A stretch of 64,000 bases of DNA from Campylobacteraceae bacterium (lineage in GTDB: Bacteria; Campylobacterota; Campylobacteria; Campylobacterales; Arcobacteraceae): positions 124,001-188,000 of the forward strand of contig JABSOM010000001.1 of NCBI GenBank assembly GCA_013215945.1. The letters are read 5' to 3'. Positions 18,539-52,269 of this stretch are shown piece by piece. The position numbers and the translations under genes were made by a program. The number at the start of each line of letters is the position of its first letter. The first letter of the stretch is position 1. Under the pieces are notes generated by a model. It searched no databases, had not been told where the DNA came from, and was given only the letters and a program-made list of their open reading frames with translations.

Positions 18539-20677
18539 TTAAAAACTGTCTGTTAGTATTTTATTTTCAGATTCTGCATTAAATACCGTTTCAAAAGTAG
18601 GTAAAAAAAGAGGAGAAGGTTCAGCATTTGTTAAATCTTTACTTGCAGTATCCATAGTTTTTATTACTTCACTTTCTTTGAAGTCTGTATCTTCTAGGAA
18701 TATATTTTCATTTTCAAGCGTAAACAAGTCTTTGAAGTCAATATCAAACTCTGGGGTTTGAACTAAATGATAATTCTTATAAGAGATTTCATTTAATTTT
18801 TCTATTATTTCATCTATATTAATGTTTTCATAATCACCACTATTCTCAGTGCTATTATTACTGTTATTTCCTTCATCATCATTTTCATTTTCATTCTCTT
18901 CTTTTTGCTCATTATCTTCTAGAATGGGTTGTTTTATAATACTCTCTTCATCTCCGCCATTTTCTTCTTTAGACGTTGCAGTAACTTCGATTTTTTTAAG
19001 CTCTTCTTCACTTAACGGTTTTGTTGATACTATCGTTATTGCTTCATCAATGTATTTTGAGTTTTCATCTATTTGTAGAACATAATAACCATCAATTAAT
19101 TCTAATTCATTTCCGTTTTCATCAAAAAGTTTTACTCCTTCTGGTAACGTTGAAGCGTCAATTTTTATTGAGTCAATACTCTCACTATCTATATCAGTGA
19201 CTTTCGCAGTAATTTTCAATTCATATGAATAAGTATTGTATTCCTCAAAAAGTGTTTCATCTCCTATTACTGTTCCATCTGAGAATTTAATGGCTTCAAA
19301 ACCTTCTAGGCTATTTTGAATATCATCTACATTATTAATATAATCATCATAGGTATAATTGTTTAATACAATACTGTCTTTACCACAGCCCCCAATAATA
19401 TCAGCATTTATTTTGCCATTGACGACTAGGGAGTCATTTCCTTTTCCTAGGTTTAATGTTTTGTTGACATCTCCATTGATAAGTACATGGTCATCTCCAC
19501 TGCCCATATCTATACGCCCATTGGAGTCACCTTTTATTTCTAAAAAATCATCTCCTTTTCCTAAATCTACAGAATTATTAACATTTCCTTCTATTAAAAC
19601 ATTGTCATTTCCATTGCCAAGATCAAGCTTACCATTACTGTCTCCACCTATGTGTAAAGAATCATTTCCCTCATTAAGAGTAATAGAAGAATTACTGTTT
19701 CCATTAATCTTAATACTGTCATCTCCTTTTCCTGCCGTAATTTTTTTATTGGCATCGTTATTGATTTCTAAAATATTATTCCCATGGCCTAAGTCAATCT
19801 TATCATTGGCATTATTTCCAATATAAATGACATCATCCCCATTTCCTGCGGTGATTTTTTTATTGGCATCATTTCCAATATCTAGTTTATTGTCTCCATT
19901 TCCTAAACTAATCTTTTGATTTGCATTATTTGTAATAATTATCTGATCATCAGCCCAAGAACATTTGATAGCTCTGTTTGAGTCCCCCCAATAAAAATGT
20001 GTAGGTTTTTTAATAAAATGATCTTCAAGTCCTTCAATGCCCTGCCATGTTATTGGTATTTCTTTAGGATTTTTATCAATAATTAAATCTAAAAGAGGAG
20101 CTTGTGCTTCTTTATCTGGAATGGGTTCTGGCTCAGGTTCTGGCTCAGGTTCAGGCTCTGGTTCAGGTTTTAAAACAGGAGAGAGTTTTTCTTCATCAAA
20201 AATACCATTTTTTGAATCTTCTTTTTCTGTCTCTATTTTAAGCGCTATTATTTCTTCCTCTACTTGTATTCTTGGATTTAAGATATTTTCATCAATCGCA
20301 TTCTCTTCTAAAAATATATAGTCCAAAAAAGATGTATTAAAATCATAGGCTGTTGCTTTTGAAGATTCTAATAAATCAAGATAATGAATATAACTGCTGA
20401 CCTCATAATCTAAAAAAGACAGACTAAAAGCATAACTTCCCTCTGCATTTGAAACATCGTCATTTTCTTGCAGGAGAAGAAGTGCATTTTTTATTTTTAT
20501 AAACTTGGTTTCTTTATTGTAAATAATGATATCTGTTTCATTTAGGACTTTAAAATCCAGTTCTTTTACGAAAGAATTGATTTCAATGTGCGAAAATTCA
20601 GATGCATCCAGAATCAAAGATTCTTTGAATACTATAGTCTTTGTATCATTATTTTCTTGTGTTAGTAAAATTTCCAT
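18539..20677 (-). CDS. Large acidic protein with nine 19-residue Gly/Asp/Asn repeats (RTX-like beta-roll)
   Basis: The 712-residue protein has a ~165-residue N-terminal domain, an eight-fold Pro-Glu linker (~169-185) and nine consecutive 19-residue repeats (259-429) of the pattern G-x-G-D/N-D/N-x-I/L-x-I followed by x-x-D/N-A/S-N-x-x-I/L. An acidic C-terminal domain (~430-712) has a D/E/N-rich low-complexity run. The repeats resemble calcium-binding hemolysin-type (RTX) nonapeptides but with an unusual period. No N-terminal signal peptide is present; type I secretion is possible but no exporter is nearby. The ATG at 20677 has AAAGG at the right distance; a TTG at 20683 is less likely. Confidence 0.75.
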   Translation of the reverse strand: MEILLTQENNDTKTIVFKESLILDASEFSHIEINSFVKELDFKVLNETDIIIYNKETKFIKIKNALLLLQENDDVSNAEGSYAFSLSFLDYEVSSYIHYLDLLESSKATAYDFNTSFLDYIFLEENAIDENILNPRIQVEEEIIALKIETEKEDSKNGIFDEEKLSPVLKPEPEPEPEPEPEPEPIPDKEAQAPLLDLIIDKNPKEIPITWQGIEGLEDHFIKKPTHFYWGDSNRAIKCSWADDQIIITNNANQKISLGNGDNKLDIGNDANKKITAGNGDDVIYIGNNANDKIDLGHGNNILEINNDANKKITAGKGDDSIKINGNSNSSITLNEGNDSLHIGGDSNGKLDLGNGNDNVLIEGNVNNSVDLGKGDDFLEIKGDSNGRIDMGSGDDHVLINGDVNKTLNLGKGNDSLVVNGKINADIIGGCGKDSIVLNNYTYDDYINNVDDIQNSLEGFEAIKFSDGTVIGDETLFEEYNTYSYELKITAKVTDIDSESIDSIKIDASTLPEGVKLFDENGNELELIDGYYVLQIDENSKYIDEAITIVSTKPLSEEELKKIEVTATSKEENGGDEESIIKQPILEDNEQKEENENENDDEGNNSNNSTENSGDYENINIDEIIEKLNEISYKNYHLVQTPEFDIDFKDLFTLENENIFLEDTDFKESEVIKTMDTASKDLTNAEPSPLFLPTFETVFNAESENKILTDSF
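19391..19903 (-). repeat. Nine 57 bp in-frame repeats within the beta-roll protein gene
   Basis: The 513 bases encode exactly nine units of 19 residues, each beginning G-x-G-D/N-D/N (the fifth begins NEGND). The units are diverged at the nucleotide level, so this is an old amplification rather than a fresh tandem repeat. Confidence 0.8.
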
Positions 20678-45953: not shown

Positions 45954-45985
45954 AAAAAGAAAAAAGCCTAGGCTTTTTTCTTTTT
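45954..45985. terminator. Perfect terminator palindrome at the end of the MMPL operon
   Basis: AAAAAGAAAAAAGCC and GGCTTTTTTCTTTTT form a 15 bp inverted repeat with a TA centre. The stop codon of the RND transporter gene overlaps its edge, so it ends the minus-strand operon. Confidence 0.8.
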
Positions 45986-48293
45986 ATGGTGTATTTATTT
46001 CTTTATTTTTACACTTTGTTTTGCATTTATCTAACATAGATAAAATAGCAGGAAGCATTAATAAATCAGCTACTACTGCAATGATTAAAGCAGATGCAGT
46101 TACAACTCCAAACATATAATTAGGTAAAAAATCAGAAAAGACAAACACTGAAAAAGATATACTTAAAATAAGTGTTGTAAAAATAATAGCATTTCCTGCA
46201 TATTGCATTACATAAGTAAGACTGTCTTGCATGTTTTTGCCTTGTTTTCTTGCTTCAAAGTATTTTACAAAAAAGTGAATACTATCATCAACAGCAACAC
46301 CTATAATAATGGCGCCTGCAATAGCAACACCTATATCTATATAAATACTTAACCATCCCATCATACCAATTACTAAAATAATAGGGAGAACATTGGGTAA
46401 AACAAATAAAACGATATATCTAATGCGTCTAAAAATAAGCAACATCATTAAAGTAACTGCTACAATAGCAATTGAAATAGAAGAAATAAGCGTAGCCGTA
46501 ACATCATGTTGCATATGTGCAAACATTACCGTTTGTCCATTAACTTCTGCGCTATAGGGTGTATCTTTCCACCAATCTTGTGCCCAAGCTATCATTTCTA
46601 AATCTTTAGTTGTATCTACTACATTAATAGCAGCTGTAATTCGTAATTGTCTCTCTTCAATATCCATTTGGTCATTGATTTCCATTCCTTGAGGAAGAGA
46701 TAAAGAATACAATAATAAATATTGTGCAATCAAACCTTGATTATCAGGTACGCTTTTAGAATTATTCATAACCTCATTAAACTTTTTAACTACTTGTAAT
46801 AAAGAAGTAATATGTCTAACCTCAGCTGGAAAAGCTGCATAAAAGTCTTCATAAAAACGCTCGGTCGTTTTCAAAAACTTAGGATCTTTAATTCCATCTT
46901 TAATTTTTGTATCAACAATAATTTCATAAGTCATAGGACCAGAAATATTATCTTGAATAAAATTAACGGCTTTTCTCCAAGGAACATCTTCTTTAAAATA
47001 ACGTACAGTATTTGAATCTACTTGAACTTTTGAAATACCATAACCCAAACCAAGGAATAAAAGTAAGGTTGCAAGGAATATTTTTTTATCATTTGTTACA
47101 ATATACTTACCATACCACTTTGCAAATCTAGTACTTTTATTTTGAGCTTCATCTACTTTTTTTATTTTGGGTTTAATGATTGCTAAAATTGCGGGAATAA
47201 ATAACATAGTTAAAACAAAAGCTAATAATGCAGCATTTGCGGTTGCAATTCCCAGTGTTTTAATAGGAATTACATTTGAAATAGCCAAAGATGCAAAACC
47301 TACAGCTGTTGTTAATGAGGTAAACAAAATAGGCAAAAAGTTTTTTTGCATTGTATAATGAATGGCTTCATCATTATTCTGTCCTTGTTTTCTAGCCACC
47401 GTATAAATCCAAAAAATATGCATAGCATCTGCTATTCCAATAGCAGTAATAAATACAGGCATATTTACTGTAAAGTTATTTAGTTTATATCCAAGCATTA
47501 CTTGAACCGATAATACAATTAAAAAAGTAAAAATAACAATAGATATGCTAATAAACATTGTTGAGAATTTTTTAAAAATAATCAATAATAAAATCATTGT
47601 TAAAACAAGAACCAAAGGCGTAAATAAAGCACCATCAGCTTGTGCAATTTCAATAAAAGAAGAATTTACAATAGGTCCTCCATTTAATTGAAAATCAATA
47701 CCATATTTTTTAATTTCTGGCTCTAAAATAGCTTCGGTTAGGGCTTTTAATCTTAATGATACCTCAGGTCCCTCCCCTGCATTAGGAGCCAGTCTTGCTA
47801 CTATTGTTGTAGTTTTAGCATCTTTACTAATTAAACGCCCTACTATTGCATCTTCTTTTAAAATAATATTCTTTTTATTTTCTAAATCTTGTTTACTTAA
47901 AGAATCTATTTCATCAATAAAATCTTCTACAATTACATCATCGGGATCTTCTGTACTTGTATGTACATATTGATAATTTGTAATAGAATCTACTCTAGCA
48001 ATGTATTCCGTTTGCCAGAATTTTTGTGTGATTCTAGAAACTACCCCTAAACTTTCTTTATTAAAGACCCCATCTTCATTTTTAAATGTTACTGTAATTG
48101 CTTGATCATTTCCAAACACAGATCTAAAATTATCATAATCTTTTAATATTTTGGAGTCTTTTGCAAACCAGATTCTATAAGAACCTTCAAAAGCCAAGTC
48201 TTTAAGTTGCATTGCCATAATTAAAGCAATGGTAGGTATAAGTATTACAATTAACCATCTAAATTTTATAACTAAATTTATAAACTTTTGCAT
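45984..48293 (-). CDS. RND-superfamily MMPL-type transporter
   Basis: The 769-residue protein has the duplicated RND topology: one helix (~12-30), a large periplasmic loop, five helices (~225-380), another single helix (~405-423), a second loop and five helices (~615-755). The sequences GIADAMHIFWIY and GVAVDDSIHFFVKYF are helix-4 and -10 proton-relay motifs with the Asp residues typical of MMPL proteins. It is the last gene of an operon with a LolA-like protein and an outer-membrane protein, suggesting transport of a lipid or hydrophobic compound across the envelope. Confidence 0.88.
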   Translation of the reverse strand: MQKFINLVIKFRWLIVILIPTIALIMAMQLKDLAFEGSYRIWFAKDSKILKDYDNFRSVFGNDQAITVTFKNEDGVFNKESLGVVSRITQKFWQTEYIARVDSITNYQYVHTSTEDPDDVIVEDFIDEIDSLSKQDLENKKNIILKEDAIVGRLISKDAKTTTIVARLAPNAGEGPEVSLRLKALTEAILEPEIKKYGIDFQLNGGPIVNSSFIEIAQADGALFTPLVLVLTMILLLIIFKKFSTMFISISIVIFTFLIVLSVQVMLGYKLNNFTVNMPVFITAIGIADAMHIFWIYTVARKQGQNNDEAIHYTMQKNFLPILFTSLTTAVGFASLAISNVIPIKTLGIATANAALLAFVLTMLFIPAILAIIKPKIKKVDEAQNKSTRFAKWYGKYIVTNDKKIFLATLLLFLGLGYGISKVQVDSNTVRYFKEDVPWRKAVNFIQDNISGPMTYEIIVDTKIKDGIKDPKFLKTTERFYEDFYAAFPAEVRHITSLLQVVKKFNEVMNNSKSVPDNQGLIAQYLLLYSLSLPQGMEINDQMDIEERQLRITAAINVVDTTKDLEMIAWAQDWWKDTPYSAEVNGQTVMFAHMQHDVTATLISSISIAIVAVTLMMLLIFRRIRYIVLFVLPNVLPIILVIGMMGWLSIYIDIGVAIAGAIIIGVAVDDSIHFFVKYFEARKQGKNMQDSLTYVMQYAGNAIIFTTLILSISFSVFVFSDFLPNYMFGVVTASALIIAVVADLLMLPAILSMLDKCKTKCKNKEINTP

Positions 48294-48305: not shown

Positions 48306-49514
48306 TTAATAATAATATGCAATGTTTAGGCCAATTTTTTTAGAACGACCTTGTTGTGCATATATTGTATTGTGTGTTTTTGAAGGCTCAGTATAGGATA
48401 GGTCTAATTTAACTTTAAACGCATCATATAGCCTTGTTTCAAATTCTACGTAATAATTCTCTTCTTTATAATCGGTATCAATAATAACCCCACCTACAGC
48501 GGTAGAGTCACCATAATCATTAAGGCTGTATCTAAGTCCTAAGAACAAATCATTCTGAAATATCTCTCCCCTACTTAAATCACTGGAAATTCGTTCATCT
48601 TTACTTTTATAATAATAATACTCACCTAATATTGCAAGTTCACTGCCAGCTTCAAACTGCTCCAGCGTATACTCTAAACCAAAAGCACTGTGGTAATAAT
48701 CAGCTACATTTTTATCATCAAGAACATCTGTATACAAGAATTCTAATTTTATTAAAGCAGATCCAAGTACTAAAGTATTATAGGTTGAAAACTTATTAAC
48801 TAAATAAGCATGTTCACTGTATTCATTTGCAATTTTTCTTAAATAGCGTTGTGAGTCATATCCATTTTGTACTATAAAAGCATAATCTAAAGCGATATCA
48901 TCACTTAAACTACCTGTGTATGTTACATAAACACTTGGTCGGTACAAAGATTTTTCACTTTCTAATTTGTTTTTTAAACGTTCATTCTCACCTAAGATAC
49001 TATAGGTATAAGAGGCATTTGCCATTTTTGATTTCTGTTCATATAATTTAACAATAAGTGAGAGTTCGCTTTCCTCAAAATAGTGTGAATACTGAATATT
49101 GTAGGCCCCTATTTTGTCTGTTTTACTGGGATCTGTTCTTTTATCTTGAATATTAAAACCATCAACAATATTTTTTACTTCCAATGCACCCCAAAACAAA
49201 ATACTTTTTCCAAAGAGTATTTTAGAGTCTTCAAATTCATAGGAAGTATATAACTCATTTATACGAAGATAAGAACGATCATTGTTTGTTTTAGAATTAT
49301 AATCGCTGCTGTCTTCTTGCGCATAAAGTTCTAAAACGGAAATAAAATTATTACGCTCATAGCTAAGTTTTAATTTTTGCTCTAAAGTAAAATTAGAGCT
49401 GTGTTTATTACTGCTTTTATTATAGGCTTGCATATCTGCACCTAAATACCCTTCATAAGACAGTTCTGCGAATAAATAGGTTCCAAGAAATAAAAATAAA
49501 ATTACTTTTTTCAT
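48306..49514 (-). CDS. Outer-membrane beta-barrel protein (DUF1302-like)
   Basis: The 402-residue protein has a signal peptide (~1-16, ending LFAE), alternating hydrophobic beta strands throughout and a C-terminal aromatic end (NIAYYY), as expected for an outer-membrane barrel. ILFGKSILFWGALEVKNIVDGFN resembles DUF1302 proteins, often encoded with MMPL transporters and LolA-like proteins. Its ATG overlaps the reductase stop by four bases. It may be the outer-membrane exit of the RND system. Confidence 0.75.
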   Translation of the reverse strand: MKKVILFLFLGTYLFAELSYEGYLGADMQAYNKSSNKHSSNFTLEQKLKLSYERNNFISVLELYAQEDSSDYNSKTNNDRSYLRINELYTSYEFEDSKILFGKSILFWGALEVKNIVDGFNIQDKRTDPSKTDKIGAYNIQYSHYFEESELSLIVKLYEQKSKMANASYTYSILGENERLKNKLESEKSLYRPSVYVTYTGSLSDDIALDYAFIVQNGYDSQRYLRKIANEYSEHAYLVNKFSTYNTLVLGSALIKLEFLYTDVLDDKNVADYYHSAFGLEYTLEQFEAGSELAILGEYYYYKSKDERISSDLSRGEIFQNDLFLGLRYSLNDYGDSTAVGGVIIDTDYKEENYYVEFETRLYDAFKVKLDLSYTEPSKTHNTIYAQQGRSKKIGLNIAYYY

Positions 49515-50074
49515 AAATTTCCTTGTTCAATATTTACTAGTATTTTTTGTGTATTTCTATTTTTTGTATCCATGGAACCATAAAGTTTAAAAACTTCAAG
49601 TTTCATACCTGTTAAATTAATTATTTGTTGTTTAAACATATTTTTTAAACGCCTATTTGCACCTGTCAAAAAATAATACAAATAAGGCGCTCCTGATGTT
49701 GCTAATATTTTAACTTTTTTATTTTTTAATAAACCAATAGGTCTTGAATTGACATATTTAAATGCAAAACCAGAAGAAAAATTCCAATCAATAAAATTCT
49801 TTAAAATAGCAGGCATTGATCCCCACCAATAAGGAAATACAAATACTAACTCATCTGCTTTTGAAATCTTAGCTTGATAATAATCCATCTCTTTTGTTTG
49901 AAATTCTTCCCTTAGATAAAAATCTTGTTGATTTTTATCACGGTACAAATCAAGAACTTCGACCTTGTCCCCTTGCTCTAAAGACTTCTTTTTATAAGCA
50001 TTTGCCATTGCAAACGAAAAACTCTCTTCTAAAGGATTTGCAATAATTATAAGTATGTTTTTTATTGTTTTCAT
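49511..50074 (-). CDS. Flavodoxin-fold NAD(P)H oxidoreductase
   Basis: The 187-residue protein has the Flavodoxin_2/NQO layout: IIIANPLEESFSFAMANAY at the start (FMN-phosphate region), VFVFPYWWGSMPAILKNFID (flavin-binding loop) and ATSGAPYLYY. Family members reduce quinones or other electrophiles by two electrons. Placing it between a LolA-like and an outer-membrane gene is unusual and suggests the operon handles a redox-active compound. It begins four bases after the LolA-like gene ends. Confidence 0.84.
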   Translation of the reverse strand: MKTIKNILIIIANPLEESFSFAMANAYKKKSLEQGDKVEVLDLYRDKNQQDFYLREEFQTKEMDYYQAKISKADELVFVFPYWWGSMPAILKNFIDWNFSSGFAFKYVNSRPIGLLKNKKVKILATSGAPYLYYFLTGANRRLKNMFKQQIINLTGMKLEVFKLYGSMDTKNRNTQKILVNIEQGNL

Positions 50075-50078
50075 TCTC

Positions 50079-50834
50079 TTACTTTTTTAAAACACGTTTA
50101 TGAAAATCTTTATTTTGAAGGCCATTTTTTATTGTTTCATCTTGCCAAACTAAAATACTTTCTTTATTATTTTGAAAGTTTTTAACGTGGATTTTTCCTA
50201 CTCTGTATACACCATTTATTTTTTTATATTCAGAAAAATAGGCACTTTTTAAAAGGGATTTTTTTCTATCATAATAATCTACTTGATAATTTAAAAAAGT
50301 ATTTACATCAATATAGGATACTTGTTTGGTATATCCTGAGTATTTGTAATTAGGAATTCTCTGTACTTTATATACTTCTTTACCATTTAATATTACTTTT
50401 TCTGCTTCTTCTTTTTTAAAATCGTATTTGTCAATATTAAAAGAGCTCAAGTCTTCATAAGAAAATTCACTTCCCATAAAAGAACCTGATTTATTTTTAG
50501 ATGAAATTCTTTTTACTCTTTTAAGTGCAGGTAAATACAACCACTGATCATCATCTTTTTTAGCATGTTCATAGTTTAAGAATTTTGTACCTTTTACATC
50601 AGCTGGACTTAAAAACTCTATTAAGGATTTGTCCCCTCCGTCTTTTTCTAAAGAAATTGATTTCATTTGTCTAATACGTGTTTGACCTTTTGCATTAAGA
50701 AGCGTCATAGTCATAATTGAGCTTGAATCTTCAAAACCACTCATTACTGCATCATTCTTTTGTGCCAATTCAAAATCTGTCATTGCAAAAATATTTGCAG
50801 CCAAAAAGAGTCCTGATATTATTAATTTTTTCAT
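50079..50834 (-). CDS. LolA-like outer-membrane lipoprotein-sorting family protein
   Basis: The 251-residue periplasmic protein has a signal peptide (~1-17) and the LolA_like fold signature: LIEFLSPADVKGTKFLNYEH, WLYLPALKRVKRISS, GSFMGSEFSYEDLSS and YKVQRIPN. Such proteins accompany MMPL/RND transporters and may shuttle lipids. It is the first gene of the operon, with AAAGGA before the ATG, and the four-site operator array lies directly upstream. Confidence 0.86.
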   Translation of the reverse strand: MKKLIISGLFLAANIFAMTDFELAQKNDAVMSGFEDSSSIMTMTLLNAKGQTRIRQMKSISLEKDGGDKSLIEFLSPADVKGTKFLNYEHAKKDDDQWLYLPALKRVKRISSKNKSGSFMGSEFSYEDLSSFNIDKYDFKKEEAEKVILNGKEVYKVQRIPNYKYSGYTKQVSYIDVNTFLNYQVDYYDRKKSLLKSAYFSEYKKINGVYRVGKIHVKNFQNNKESILVWQDETIKNGLQNKDFHKRVLKK

Positions 50835-50846
50835 TATTTTCCTTTA

Positions 50847-50931
50847 ATGTAAACAGTGATTACTTTTAATGTGTGCAATGTTAACATAAGATGTAAACAA
50901 TGTCAACATAAAATGTAAACAATGTTCACAT
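50847..50931. promoter_or_regulatory. Array of four 19 bp operator-like sites with 22 bp period
   Basis: Related sites begin at 50847, 50869, 50891 and 50913, exactly 22 bp apart. The best copies read ATGTAAACAATGTCAACAT and ATGTAAACAATGTTCACAT; the third reads ATGTGTGCAATGTTAACAT and the outermost is degenerate on its right half. Each is an imperfect palindrome (ATGT...ACAT). The array fills the divergent region between the LolA-like operon and the TetR gene, so it is most likely the TetR binding region for both. Confidence 0.75.
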
Positions 50932-50953
50932 TTTTTGATTAAGTTCATAATTA

Positions 50954-50969
50954 TGCTATAATACGGGCA
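50954..50969 (+). promoter_or_regulatory. Extended -10 promoter, possibly giving a leaderless tetR transcript
   Basis: TGCTATAAT (TATAAT at 50957-50962) lies only six bases before the TetR ATG at 50969. Transcription would start at or next to the ATG, and no ribosome binding site is present. Confidence 0.5.
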
Positions 50970-51610
50970 TGGCTAAATGTATAATCACAAAATTAATAGA
51001 TAAATGTAAAAGTAAAACATACCATCATGGGAACTTGAAAGAAGAACTCTTACAAGAAGCATTAAAAATTATTCATGAAGAGGGTGTTGATGCTGTAACT
51101 TTACAGGCCCTTGGAAATAAACTAGGAACCTCAAGATCTGCGATTTACAGACATTTTTCCTCTAAGAGTGATTTAATGGACAATGTTATGATCTATGGTT
51201 TTGAAAGTTTTGATTCACGCATAACTCCTATTTTTGAACTAAAAGATAAGGATGTTGTAGAGCGATTATATTTAATGGGAAAAGAATATTTGACCTTTGG
51301 TATAAATAATCCCAATTTATTTAGAATGTTATTTGGTGAAAAATATAGGGACTTACGAGAAGACAATTGTGATATAAATGATGAAGAACAAGCAAAAGGT
51401 TATCATTCTTTGGTTAGTTTAATTGCAGAAGCCCAAGAAAAAGATATCTTTAAAAAAGATGAAGATGCTTTATTAATAACGCAAACAGTACATGCCATGA
51501 TTCATGGTTTAACTATTCTTTATATAGATGGACATATTGATATTAAAGACAATATAGAAAAAGTATTTGAAGTTCATTATAAAATAATGACTCAAGGATT
51601 AATGAAATAA
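50969..51610 (+). CDS. TetR-family transcriptional regulator
   Basis: The 213-residue protein has a short extension, then the TetR helix-turn-helix region (~18-65): KTYHHGNLKEELLQEALKII, VTLQALGNKLGTSRSAIYRH and FSSKSDLMDNVM. The C-terminal helices resemble the WHG-type TetR C-terminal domain. It is divergent from the envelope operon and likely binds the 22-bp-spaced array to repress that operon and itself. The MOSC gene follows after 14 bases. Confidence 0.88.
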   Translation: MAKCIITKLIDKCKSKTYHHGNLKEELLQEALKIIHEEGVDAVTLQALGNKLGTSRSAIYRHFSSKSDLMDNVMIYGFESFDSRITPIFELKDKDVVERLYLMGKEYLTFGINNPNLFRMLFGEKYRDLREDNCDINDEEQAKGYHSLVSLIAEAQEKDIFKKDEDALLITQTVHAMIHGLTILYIDGHIDIKDNIEKVFEVHYKIMTQGLMK

Positions 51611-51624
51611 AACGAAGGATAGAA

Positions 51625-52269
51625 GTGGAAAATATTGCTGTTTATAATATATATTTAGGACAAGTAGAAACAATCAAAACTCCTAAAAAAGAATTTAAAA
51701 GTGCTTATAAGAAAAAAGCCATCACACAAGATGAATATCTTAGCAAAACTGGTTTTATAAATGATGTACAAAGTGATACGAAACATCATGGTGGAGTAAA
51801 TAGAGCTTTATGTGTGTATCCCTATGCAACGTATGAATACTTTAAAAAAGAGCACGACTTGGATTTAAAAGACTGTTCTTTTGGTGAGAATATCACTATT
51901 TTAACTTATGATGACAGTGACATTTGTTTAGGGGATCAGTTCTCTTTTGAAGATGCTATTGTTGAAGTTACGCAACCAAGACAACCCTGTTCTCATATAT
52001 CAAATGTTACAGGCATTAAAAACTTAACAGCATTAACTGTTAAAAATTTAAAAACTGGTTTTTATTTACGTGTATTAAAAGAAGGAACAATAAAAAAAGA
52101 CTCTACTTTGCAATTAATTAAAAGAGTACATGAAAGTATTACAATTGAGTTTATAAATAAATGTTTTTTTGATGCCAAAAACAATCAAGAGAATATTAAA
52201 AAAGTTTTAGCATGTGTTGAGTTATCTATTAATTTTAGAGAAGAGTTAGAAAAAAGATTAAAATCCTAA
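51625..52269 (+). CDS. MOSC domain protein (YiiM-like)
   Basis: The 214-residue protein has the MOSC core (~15-165) with KHHGGVNRALCVYPY, FGENITI, GDQF and the invariant Cys in QPRQPCSHIS, then a three-helix tail. The YiiM branch uses molybdenum cofactor to reduce N-hydroxylated compounds. It starts with GTG behind AAGGA. Co-transcription with the TetR regulator hints that the effector compound is something this enzyme can detoxify. Confidence 0.86.
   Translation: MENIAVYNIYLGQVETIKTPKKEFKSAYKKKAITQDEYLSKTGFINDVQSDTKHHGGVNRALCVYPYATYEYFKKEHDLDLKDCSFGENITILTYDDSDICLGDQFSFEDAIVEVTQPRQPCSHISNVTGIKNLTALTVKNLKTGFYLRVLKEGTIKKDSTLQLIKRVHESITIEFINKCFFDAKNNQENIKKVLACVELSINFREELEKRLKS

Follow-up and report, generated by a model that had tools for sequence, protein, structure and literature searches.

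Among the closest described counterparts of the locus examined here is the tetR/tetA system of Tn10, in which the gene for a TetR repressor is divergent from an export gene and two palindromic operators of the 19-bp class, tetO1 and tetO2, lie in the shared promoter region (PMC3037858, PMC11686294). The same paired-operator divergent architecture is found at our locus and in 52 of 73 relatives, with four sites in this genome. The two systems differ, however, in that their operator sequences are unrelated, that the pair here is spaced at 22–31 bp, has promoter hexamers inside its half-sites and is part of a set of four, and that in Tn10 each operator is reportedly bound independently of the other.

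A second point of reference is SlmA, the nucleoid occlusion factor of the TetR family, which is reported to bind DNA in a higher-order form. The TetR protein of our locus shows a partial, N-terminal match to SlmA, which is its best match in NCBIfam and its second, after 3on2, in the PDB. Nothing in NCBIfam scored above its cut-off, however, SlmA reaching 49.5 bits against a curated cut-off of 120, and the exact sites are confined to the tetR locus, whereas SlmA sites are scattered over the chromosome; membership in SlmA was rejected on these grounds. The closest solved sequence, 3on2, matches nearly the whole TetR protein (E 2.7e-23) and carries the depositors' generic name 'probable transcriptional regulator'; we know of no operator described for it.

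The genes around the sites in the window, by which we mean the whole 64-kb stretch of DNA that was analysed, are as follows.

45984–48293, minus strand: MMPL / HAE3-type RND exporter, leftward operon (PF03176, E 4.4e-35)
48306–49514, minus strand: 402-aa protein, leftward operon; its start overlaps the end of the flavodoxin-like gene, which precedes it in the operon, by 4 bp
49511–50074, minus strand: flavodoxin-like NAD(P)H oxidoreductase, leftward operon (PF02525, E 5.4e-34)
50079–50834, minus strand: LolA-like outer-membrane lipoprotein-sorting protein, first gene of the leftward operon (PF17131, E 3.3e-58)
50969–51610, plus strand: TetR-family repressor (PF00440, E 1.5e-13; PF13305, E 3.5e-8)

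The TetR protein has the N-terminal TetR_N helix-turn-helix (PF00440, 50.7 bits, cut-off 24) and a predicted C-terminal ligand/dimerisation domain that is all-helical by family (PF13305 TetR_C_33, 34.5 bits, cut-off 26.8). In the leftward operon, a family search with the 402-aa protein gave no match, and the MMPL exporter scored 200.9 bits against TIGR00921, under the curated cut-off of 351.9. The genes divergent from tetR among relatives (n = 34) are export-related or redox in every class, with 24 LolA-like, 4 MMPL, 4 outer-membrane efflux and 2 flavodoxin genes. One genus (g74; L068, L070, L098, L104 and similar loci) has an outer-membrane efflux protein (PF02321) in place of the LolA-like gene opposite tetR and an unchanged operator pair, such that the regulator retains its promoter while the cargo differs. 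Directly downstream of tetR in the window lies a MOSC-domain gene with a GTG start (51625–52269), possibly co-transcribed.

The divergent intergenic region between the LolA-like gene and tetR contains the array and the predicted promoter elements.

50840–50845, minus strand: AAAGGA, predicted to be the ribosome-binding sequence for the leftward operon, read directly
50847–50865: site A, ATGTAAACAGTGATTACTT, operator-like with 2 mismatches, within the 5' UTR predicted for the leftward operon; additional copy in the genus
50869–50887: site B, ATGTGTGCAATGTTAACAT, operator-like with 1 mismatch, equivalent of the conserved 'site 1'; contains the leftward −10
50878–50883, minus strand: predicted extended −10 (TGT)TAACAT of the leftward promoter, within site B
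50891–50909: site C, ATGTAAACAATGTCAACAT, operator-like and exact, equivalent of the conserved 'site 2'; contains the leftward −35
50901–50906, minus strand: predicted −35 TTGACA of the leftward promoter, within site C (TTGACA-N17-TAACAT with the −10 above)
50913–50931: site D, ATGTAAACAATGTTCACAT, operator-like and exact, an additional copy located between the conserved pair and the promoter of tetR
50935–50940: −35-like TTGATT of tetR, just downstream of site D
50957–50962, plus strand: predicted extended −10 (TGC)TATAAT of tetR, 6 bp before the ATG at 50969

The first-pass annotation had described four imperfect palindromes at exact 22-bp steps, and direct reading bears this out: the array holds four copies of ATGTnnACAnTGTnnACAT with 2, 1, 0 and 0 mismatches from A to D, A and B being those that depart from the consensus. 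Within each site the unit TGTnnACA, itself palindromic, repeats at 9 bp, and between sites at 13 bp. Searching the 64-kb window for ATGTNNACANTGTNNACAT with up to two mismatches returned sites A–D and nothing else, compared with a mean of 0.37 matches in shuffled windows (n = 100), none of which reached four. A tandem-repeat scan of the window also reported repeats at 19719–19931 and 20115–20169, comprising 1.9 copies of a 114-bp unit and short units of 6/12/18/24 bp. Across the whole 3.24-Mb genome, only sites C and D match exactly. A genome-wide regulon was rejected, as matches with up to two mismatches numbered 28 per strand, the four of the array included, versus 42 for a reversed control pattern.

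The occurrence of the site follows that of the protein. A survey of 399 genomes from the order found a close TetR relative encoded in 21 and an exact site in 25, the site being present in 19/21 TetR-positive versus 6/378 TetR-negative genomes (Fisher p 2.6e-25, with relatedness ignored). In the relatives' loci the sites lie directly upstream of the tetR relatives, a palindromic operator-like site thus adjoining its own gene. This distribution and the divergent intergenic position support the earlier assignment of the sites to the adjacent TetR protein, of which they are very probably the operators, as judged from co-occurrence. Three genomes of family f20 (G152, G262 and G300) each carry one exact GC-containing palindrome, ATGTGCACAnTGTGCACAT, and lack a close TetR relative; it is perhaps the site of another regulator.

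To compare orthologous regions we used the upstream sequences of 73 loci from the same order (Campylobacterota) that encode TetR relatives, scanned with a weight matrix trained on those same sites; Markov-shuffled regions gave 0 matches at the threshold used. A scan of genome contigs gave L041, from genome G001, as the single close locus, and L042 and L043, which encode distant Bradyrhizobium proteins, were left out. The 52 loci with a site pair comprise 31 spaced at 21–23 bp and 21 at 30–31 bp; the others have one site, none or, in one case, overlapping sites. Neighbouring sites are 21 bp apart once, 22 bp 27 times, 23 bp six times, 30 bp once, 31 bp 20 times and at other distances twice. More than two sites occur in only 3/73 loci: this genome with four, G002/L046 with three spaced at 21 and 22 bp, and L067 with three spaced at 9 and 34 bp, of which two overlap. 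In L067 (genome G202) two operators overlap, offset by the 9 bp of one half-site step (ATGTAAACAATGTAAACAATGTTTACAT); this arrangement may be an intermediate between the spacing classes. The conserved unit, judged from these upstream regions, is a pair of sites and not four. Regular spacing is therefore conserved in relatives and copy number is not, so that the repeat proposed by the first-pass annotation fails the comparison for copy number alone.

The spacing of the pair looks to be set mainly by promoter geometry. Pairs spaced at 22 bp read TTGACA with an N17 spacer and those at 23 bp with N18, and all 21–23-bp pairs show a TTGACA-N17/18-TAnnAT-like sequence, apart from those formed by extra sites within the genus and that of L041, the nearest relative, which lacks both hexamers. 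Pairs at 31 bp read TTTACA-N17-TAACAT with the −35 in the other half of site 2, the 30–31-bp class as a whole being TTTACA-like-N16/17-TAACAT. The half-site dinucleotides that the operator consensus does not fix change accordingly, TTGACA occupying the outer half of site 2 in 26/30 short-spaced versus 1/21 long-spaced pairs. Of the short loci, 80% carry a match to TTGACA at 5/6 or more positions at N17 and 20% carry one at N18; 76% of the long loci carry one at N17, and none were found in either class at other spacers from 10 to 25 bp. The −10 mostly stands 26–33 bp ahead of a start codon that has a ribosome-binding sequence. In the window, transcription is predicted to start leftward at about 50871, which places site A between the start and the ribosome-binding sequence; the −10, TAACAT, is only a 4/6 match to TATAAT. 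In Campylobacter jejuni, promoters of the sigma-70 type have no −35 box (PMC3847290), and the −35 here is thus unusual for the order.

TTGACA is also a legitimate operator half-site, and because the hexamers belong to the operator, their conservation is not independent of it. The two roles can nonetheless be separated by two observations. The 31-bp class lies an odd 9 bp from the 22-bp class, which is the distance between half-sites and follows if the −35 moves from one half-site to the other; helical phasing as the origin of this class is disfavoured since the step is 9 bp and not a helical turn. In addition, of 12 loci without a regular pair, seven retain TTGACA at N18 and one at N17 (8 of 12 when scored as the best −35 within N16–N18), although the second full site has decayed. 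On a protein tree the spacing changed between short and long only about five times, and only two independent pairs lie on well-supported branches; trait and spacing agree, but with so few switches the covariation of hexamer and spacing is not significant once relatedness is counted.

The number of sites varies within the genus. Four congeners have 4, 2, 3 and 2 copies, some of them fused units, and this genome is the only one of those examined with four. Its nearest relative, Arcobacter sp. NORP36 (L041; TetR protein 85% identical), carries two sites and is missing exactly 44 bp, or two units, its second site being the left part of B fused to the right part of D. G003 also has two sites, the first of which is a fused unit, while the congener G002 has an A-like extra site 21 bp from the next. 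Compared across these genomes, the four copies are a lineage-specific, unstable expansion of the conserved pair, given the lower counts in congeners and the 44 bp missing from the nearest relative. The simplest reading would place A in the ancestor of the genus and derive D by duplication, with L041 and G003 having lost units via recombination between copies. This history assumes that the assemblies of the relatives, in which error is possible, are correct; collapse of the array in L041 was judged unlikely, as the arrays are shorter than usual reads.

On the other side of the array, the best −10 lies 5–7 bp before the tetR ATG in 65/73 loci, and a ribosome-binding sequence is nearly always absent. 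The tetR gene of the window is thus probably expressed from a leaderless mRNA, a feature that, from the positions of these predicted elements, is likely to be conserved across the order. Leaderless mRNAs are known in this group and have been described as poorly conserved between species (PMC3847290), a view with which the apparently leaderless tetR in relatives across the order contrasts.

We consider it probable that the array serves a dedicated and probably self-regulating TetR repressor as its operator region, with a B/C core that doubles as the leftward promoter and with A and D as extra repeat units. Such a repressor would guard the divergent export operon, that is, the LolA-like protein, the flavodoxin-like oxidoreductase, the 402-aa protein and the MMPL exporter, through a functional core of two 19-bp operators, B and C. 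As half-sites would serve as the −10 (TAACAT, in B) and the −35 (TTGACA, in C), repressor on either site would exclude RNA polymerase, and we infer that it would be released by a ligand. The 22-bp period of B and C would be mainly a 17-bp promoter spacer seen via the operators. Sites A, in the operon leader, and D, towards the tetR promoter, would be tandem-repeat units gained and lost in the genus; A may tighten repression of the operon, possibly by blocking early elongation, and D that of tetR by strengthening autoregulation, or both may be nearly neutral. A variant of this explanation, in which A and D are neutral products of tandem-repeat slippage with no measurable effect and B and C alone count, has in our estimate somewhat less than an even chance. 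It accords with the variable copy number among the four congeners and with the absence of promoter hexamers from A and D, A being also the weakest match; D, by contrast, is an exact consensus 4 bp upstream of the −35-like TTGATT of tetR, and A-like sites are shared with G002, so that some selection on A and D is possible.

The first-pass annotation had suggested instead that the sites lie on nearly the same face of the helix and that TetR proteins bind them as a cooperative filament. The first part stands as an approximation: at an assumed 10.5 bp per turn, each 22-bp step adds +34 degrees, which amounts to about 103 degrees between A and D. Phased binding, in which neighbouring TetR dimers would touch, the 22-bp period would hold one DNA face and the four sites would form a short filament over both promoters, appears unlikely. 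Spacings of 21–23 and 30–31 bp are near two and three helical turns, the extra sites of the genus keep 21–22 bp although they lie outside the conserved promoter, and the TetR profile partly matches that of SlmA. Tandem duplication, however, reproduces a 22-bp unit to the base with no selection for phase needed, the offset of the long class is 9 bp, as exchange of promoter half-sites predicts, and not 10–11 bp, and the drift from A to D is accompanied by tolerance of a 69-degree offset (23 bp) in six pairs. The 73 loci contain no conserved multi-site array beyond the pair, the four copies themselves are not conserved, and Tn10 TetR is described as lacking cooperativity between its two operators (PMC3037858). 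With copy number not conserved and promoter geometry accounting for the 22-, 23- and 31-bp spacings, the four-site filament finds no support, though pairwise cooperativity is possible. A literature search on cooperative tandem TetR operators and on this operon in Arcobacter gave nothing useful. It seems quite improbable that repressor molecules form a cooperative chain on the four sites and that the copy number of the 22-bp unit is a fast-evolving dial, with duplication and deletion within the genus tuning the steepness of export switch-on. We also doubt strongly that each 19-bp site takes two overlapping dimers, which would make the array an eight-half-site lattice of the QacR type: the recurrence of TGTnnACA at 9 and 13 bp and the units overlapping at 9 bp in L067 would fit such a lattice, but the outer ATGT/ACAT bases are conserved too, as a single 19-bp dyad predicts, and one dimer per palindrome is the simpler reading.

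For most readers, the locus will represent ordinary efflux regulation, and the array is better seen as a variation on normal gene regulation than as a new mechanism. What it adds is that a regular operator period can arise without protein–protein phasing. In the proposed reading, half-sites of the operators serve also as hexamers of the promoter, so that operator spacing would follow from the promoter spacer, and a shift of the −35 to the opposite half-site would yield a second allowed spacing of 31 bp. The natural series of two, three and four sites in one genus provides a chance to measure the effect of extra operators.
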